DNA from: Prevotella sp.
GTDB lineage: Bacteria; Bacteroidota; Bacteroidia; Bacteroidales; Bacteroidaceae
Direction: 5' to 3'
DNA: 39,336 nt
NCBI GenBank assembly: GCA_017619445.1
Contig: JAFZSI010000013.1
Location: 1-39,336, forward strand
Shown: one piece after another, positions 15,674 to 16,279 of the stretch
How positions within the stretch are numbered: the first letter of the stretch is position 1
Layout of the letters: each line of letters starts with the position of its first letter
Translations under genes and position numbers: made by a program
The notes under the pieces: model-generated
Told to the model about the DNA's origin: nothing
What the model saw: the letters and a program-made list of their open reading frames with translations, nothing else
Database searches by the model: none

Positions 15674-16279
15674 TTATTTAGAGTACAACTCAACGATTAA
15701 CTGCTCCTTAATGTTCTCGGGGATGTCGGCGCGGTCGGGCTTGTGGAGATATTTGCCGCTCTTGGTCTGCTCGTCCCACTCAATCCAAGGATATTTGCTG
15801 TGGTTGAAGCCTGCAAGGGCTGACTCGATTACCTCAAGTGACTTTGACTTCTCGCGTACGCCAACAATCTGACCGGGCTTTACAGAGAAAGAAGGAATGT
15901 TGACCACCTGACCATCAACAACAATGTGCTTGTGGCCTACGAGCTGGCGGGCAGCTGCGCGGGTGGGAGCAATACCAAGACGGAACACCACATTGTCGAG
16001 TCGGCTCTCAAGGTTCTGAAGAAGAACCTCACCGGTGATGCCTTCGGCCTTGGCTGCCTTTTCAAACATGTTACGGAACTAGCGCTCAAGCACACCGTAG
16101 GTGTACTTAGCCTTCTGCTTCTCTGCCAACATGACACCATACTCCGACTGCTTGCGGCGGCGGTTGTTGCCATGCTGTCCAGGAGGGAAGTTTCTCCTGG
16201 ACAAAACTTTGTCCGGGCCGTAGATGGGTTCTCCAAAACGGCGGGCAATCTTAGATTTCGGTCCAATGTATCTTGCCAT
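15674..16279 (-). pseudogene. rpsD: 30S ribosomal protein S4, interrupted by an in-frame amber codon at residue 67
   Basis: The frame encodes a 201-codon S4 in one reading frame. Codons 1-66 run from [20 protein letters not shown] to KYTYGVLER, then TAG (plus 16079-16081), then [13 protein letters not shown]... to [13 protein letters not shown] ending [11 protein letters not shown]. In S4 proteins this place reads GVLE(K/R)QFRN, so the stop replaces a conserved Gln; CAG to TAG is a single transition. There is no frameshift or deletion. S4 nucleates 30S assembly and is essential. An ATG 9 nt after the stop (16069) could restart a 131-residue C-terminal fragment containing the S4 RNA-binding domain. 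The alternatives are a sequencing or assembly error, suppression, or a functional second copy elsewhere. Type 'pseudogene' records the interruption only; the functional state is unknown. Confidence 0.9.

Follow-up and report, generated by a model that had tools for sequence, protein, structure and literature searches.

An in-frame TAG codon in the assembled rpsD gene of a Prevotella draft genome: a probable error of the draft consensus

The window (the whole stretch of DNA that was analysed, 39,336 nucleotides) is contig C80 of an 81-contig draft genome (2,865,063 bases; completeness 85.2%, contamination 1.04%). It carries rpsD, the gene of ribosomal protein S4, a protein that is essential in bacteria elsewhere. 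As listed in Table 1, rpsD is a single frame of 201 codons closed by TAA, and its sole internal stop is the TAG at codon 67. The PF00163 match of the window S4 reached 96.9 bits against a curated cut-off of 23, which places the protein in the family, and the TAG falls inside this match. The initial annotation had described such a lesion, in one frame and with no other stop, and an ATG 9 nt downstream of it; the translation of the 201 codons bore out the lesion, and the ATG is present as codon 71. The TAG is therefore confirmed as genuinely present in the assembled rpsD sequence. The best named matches to the C-terminal half of S4 were Prevotella or Prevotellaceae drafts, several of them from rumen samples, which points to a rumen Prevotella as the probable source of the draft.

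Table 1. Features of the rpsD region in the window, and lesions of rpsD and rpsK in other drafts of the genus (loci, with genomes in brackets)
Feature	Location	Strand	Basis or remark
rpsD (ribosomal protein S4), 201 codons, one internal TAG	15674..16279	-	PF00163 match with one TAG inside, and translation
In-frame TAG, rpsD codon 67	16079..16081	-	Glutamine codon at the same position in the other aligned loci (98/98)
ATG, rpsD codon 71	16067..16069	-	Possible restart, yet an ordinary family codon (48/80 named relatives)
secY, same gene cluster, upstream of rpsD, terminator TAG	18507..19853	-	TAG as ordinary stop
rpsD 3' end / rpoA start	15590-15720	-	Unusual between-species conservation, synonymous sites included
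rpsD frame-breaking deletions, codons 31-70	L190 (G262), L189 (G293), L184 (G313), L186 (G322)		
rpsD N gap, codons 31-70	L185 (G297)		
rpsK lesions or N gap	L195 (G305), L193 (G322), L196 (G180)		

Codon 67 was a glutamine codon in all of the other aligned loci (92 CAG and 6 CAA), in agreement with the earlier claim that a conserved glutamine is replaced; these 98 loci comprised 80 named ones and 18 from genus genomes, and one genome may occur twice. The window S4 was the sole exception among 94 distinct S4 sequences. In the genus sample, a PF00163 match was obtained in 262 of 398 genomes, including that of the window, and S4 was found in 157 of the 175 good genomes versus 105 of the other 223. 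The screen for stops was read for all 262 genomes and spanned the PF00163-matched stretch, which covers codons 3-91 in the window S4 and is shorter for partial matches. Only two genomes had a stop there, namely that of the window and G262, in which the frame was thrown by a deletion, so the window genome alone showed a clean nonsense substitution in the screened N-terminal part of S4. The genus search with the C-terminal half of S4 was uninformative on codon 67.

Furthermore, each of the 20 near-complete genus genomes (at most 4 contigs, 99% completeness) had one PF00163 match and no stop, this set being the genomes listed with a match, while unmatched genomes were mostly unlisted. This supported the statement that rpsD is normally single-copy. 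The lesion is thus absent from the relatives and the near-complete genomes, which is what a local assembly or consensus error would give. Extra or split S4 matches occurred only in drafts with at least 40 contigs (G058, G095, G188, G225, G303 and G322, and G338 with the C-terminal half). A second rpsD, which the initial annotation had suggested looking for, was not found in the window genome, where PF00163 gave a single match in the 85% recovered. As side observations, G346 and G206 gave a weak match to the C-terminal half of S4 and no PF00163 match, and the S4 frames of G035, G082, G195 and G338 were slightly short. In G359 (locus L178), an in-frame gap of 9 codons relative to G191 shortens both S4 and its PF00163 match.

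The neighbouring genes had been described as intact, and no internal stop was found in the 25 other genes checked around rpsD in the ribosomal-protein region, the names of which were assigned from gene order and sequence. When the window was compared with four close relatives, of whose open frames 28, 28, 33 and 25 were kept, S4 alone had a stop within the shared frame; three further flagged stops sit upstream of window start codons. Compared with G191, the closest of the four (93.4% identical DNA), rpsD had 29 synonymous codon differences, 6 missense differences and the TAG, and compared with the other three it had 67-72 synonymous and 10-12 missense differences. This pattern shows strong purifying selection on the remainder of S4, in a gene that is not decaying. 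Because the differences were mostly synonymous, the TAG change would be either very recent or not real. Private changes at otherwise invariant positions numbered zero in the window rpsK, rpsM and rpoA and one in rplQ, and there was no excess of other odd residues in these four genes, a point against a consensus error.

Damage to the same genes was sought in other drafts. A further 19 genomes, in which S4 matches were weak, multiple or missing, were inspected, and rpsD lesions were sought within the PF00163-matched stretch at the N-terminal end (codons 3-91 of the window S4). Codons 31-70 of rpsD were broken in 5 of the 261 other matched genomes, by four frame-breaking deletions and one N gap, and the sequence ended within codons 11-83 in 8 more. 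Drafts of the genus are often damaged in this N-terminal stretch. The rpsK gene (S11) served as a control. It was detected in 257 of the 398 genomes, and of the four weak matches examined, three were lesions (including one N gap) and the fourth was a sequence end. Since rpsK is also damaged, the damage is not special to rpsD, and the idea of rpsD-specific lesions was weakened accordingly; damage was counted slightly more often in rpsD than in rpsK, in two screens that are not strictly equal. Damage is common in the ribosomal-protein genes of these drafts. Separately, the rpoA gene of locus L012 (from locus position 3423; named draft RUG11590) shows a TAG stop combined with the loss of 15 codons not far from its start.

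The sharing of exact 31-mers between species was counted over 153 pairs of 18 genus sequences. Those starting in codons 1-66 of rpsD were common to about 4-13 pairs, compared with 0.1-2.5 pairs for rpsK, and from codon 67 on the sharing dropped to 1.5 pairs. Metagenome assemblies could break or become mixed at stretches that species share. Sharing was far higher, about 53-65 pairs, at the 3' end of rpsD. This conserved stretch runs into the start of rpoA, and codons 190-201 form the best window of synonymous conservation in the gene; it may contain a promoter for rpoA or a signal for its translation. An RNA element in codons 20-45 of rpsD was also considered, because a few species are near-identical in that stretch, which also contains two inverted repeats. 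It was rejected, as synonymous conservation was ordinary over the 80 named relatives and the codons of one stem vary; a search of Rfam gave one weak irrelevant match.

The possibility that TAG is read as an amino acid was evaluated from release factors, tRNAs and stop usage. In a recoded genome, TAG is rarely a terminator or RF1 is lost. Here, two release-factor genes of 370 and 374 codons are open, which we take to be RF1 and RF2 by their motifs. The tRNA model found 43 tRNA genes, and the same 43 at a relaxed threshold of E = 10. The tRNA with a CTA anticodon proposed for checking was not among these 43, to which the ARAGORN output was matched by hand, in a genome 85% complete; this absence is not final, since Ala, Ile, His and Trp tRNAs are also missing from the 43. 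Gln tRNAs with TTG and with CTG were both present. Stop usage was sampled in 418,596 bases (15% of the genome, the window included), with 244 long open frames taken as genes, and the terminal stops of 233 frames were TAA in 116, TGA in 70 and TAG in 47. Stops inside genes were filtered by 40 open codons on either side, with coding thresholds set at 4 to let rpsD through. Ten of the 1377 stops tested passed, and the only TAG among them was that of rpsD; two of the others, at 15676 and 22001, are gene boundaries. No other in-gene TAG passed in the 418.6 kb, and none was seen in the window genes in comparison with the four relatives. In addition, the stretch around the rpsD TAG had no exact match in viral contigs, where exact matches only were sought.

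Four options had been offered by the initial annotation, namely a base error, a minority allele, glutamine insertion and a split S4. The former two fitted best, and the latter two were unsupported. If TAG were read as glutamine, whether through a suppressor tRNA or an altered code, full-length S4 would be made. The invariant glutamine at this position agrees with this reading, as does the TAG-to-Gln recoding described in two reports on Lak phages of Prevotella (PMC6784885, PMC8346664). Against it stand the open release factors, the lack of CTA among the tRNAs found, the two Gln tRNAs, the ordinary use of TAG as a terminator and the solitary in-gene TAG. The three marks of NCBI code 15 (numerous TAGs within genes where glutamine is expected, a CTA suppressor tRNA, and either little use of TAG as a terminator or a lost RF1) were all lacking in the material searched. 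No sign of a cell reading TAG as glutamine was found, and this reading, which is not supported, is extremely improbable. The same slight probability applies to S4 made as two pieces, residues 1-66 followed by a restart at ATG 71 that yields 131 residues. Both pieces are conserved and the ATG lies in frame just past the stop, but among the 261 other genus genomes with a match, none had an otherwise intact gene divided by a single stop, the ATG is a common codon at this position in relatives, and the break lies inside the PF00163 match. Taken as a whole, a cell that lives with the TAG, either because a suppressor encoded in the missing portion of the genome inserts glutamine efficiently at this one codon or because S4 is made in two pieces with a restart at codon 71, is highly unlikely.

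A real null allele in the majority of the cells sampled, with an intact rpsD in the unrecovered sequence as rescue or in a lineage that is dying out, is somewhat less improbable, though still unlikely. It is consistent with a single substitution in an otherwise intact gene and with the roughly 15% of the genome that is missing, but the near-complete genomes checked have one rpsD each and the additional or split matches are confined to fragmented drafts. By far the most likely explanation is that the draft consensus is in error at the TAG, with either a wrong base or an allele of minority cells written into it. This was favoured because the TAG is unique in the searched set, rpsD is otherwise conserved, the search for recoding machinery came up empty, and drafts of the genus frequently have damage in this stretch of rpsD. 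A wrong base would arise where the uncultured genome is thinly covered or its sequence is mixed; alternatively, the allele of a minority of cells would enter the consensus. We infer that the base itself is wrong, and the bulk of the living population very probably has rpsD without an internal stop, as its relatives do.

A tolerated TAG would mean a free-living bacterium with a stop in an essential ribosomal protein, which would be startling. As the case most likely stands, its meaning is caution on drafts of this genus, and the rpsD TAG most likely does not signal a changed reading of the genetic code. Per ribosomal-protein gene, about one to two percent of these drafts have a deletion or gap (5/261 for the N-terminal part of S4 and 3/257 for S11). 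Therefore, one broken essential gene is weak evidence of recoding.

Two known systems can be compared with this locus. The Lak phages reportedly had their own suppressor tRNA for TAG in 38 of 51 cases, and were described without integrases or prophages (PMC6784885, PMC8346664). The present case resembles their recoding in that a TAG stands where glutamine is expected, in what is probably a Prevotella. It differs in that a single TAG lies in a host gene, with no CTA tRNA found, open release factors and TAG in use as a stop. The other system is that of errors in draft metagenome assemblies, which, when uncorrected, place incorrect gene sequences in databases, as stated in a paper on curation (PMC7111523). 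The lesion in the window is a clean single substitution, whereas the other drafts show deletions and a gap, and reasoning from those lesions to this one is thus by analogy. The likeness lies in a conserved gene that is broken while the remainder of its operon is intact, in a fragmented draft, and in the breaks that occur also in rpsD, rpsK and rpoA of this group's other drafts.
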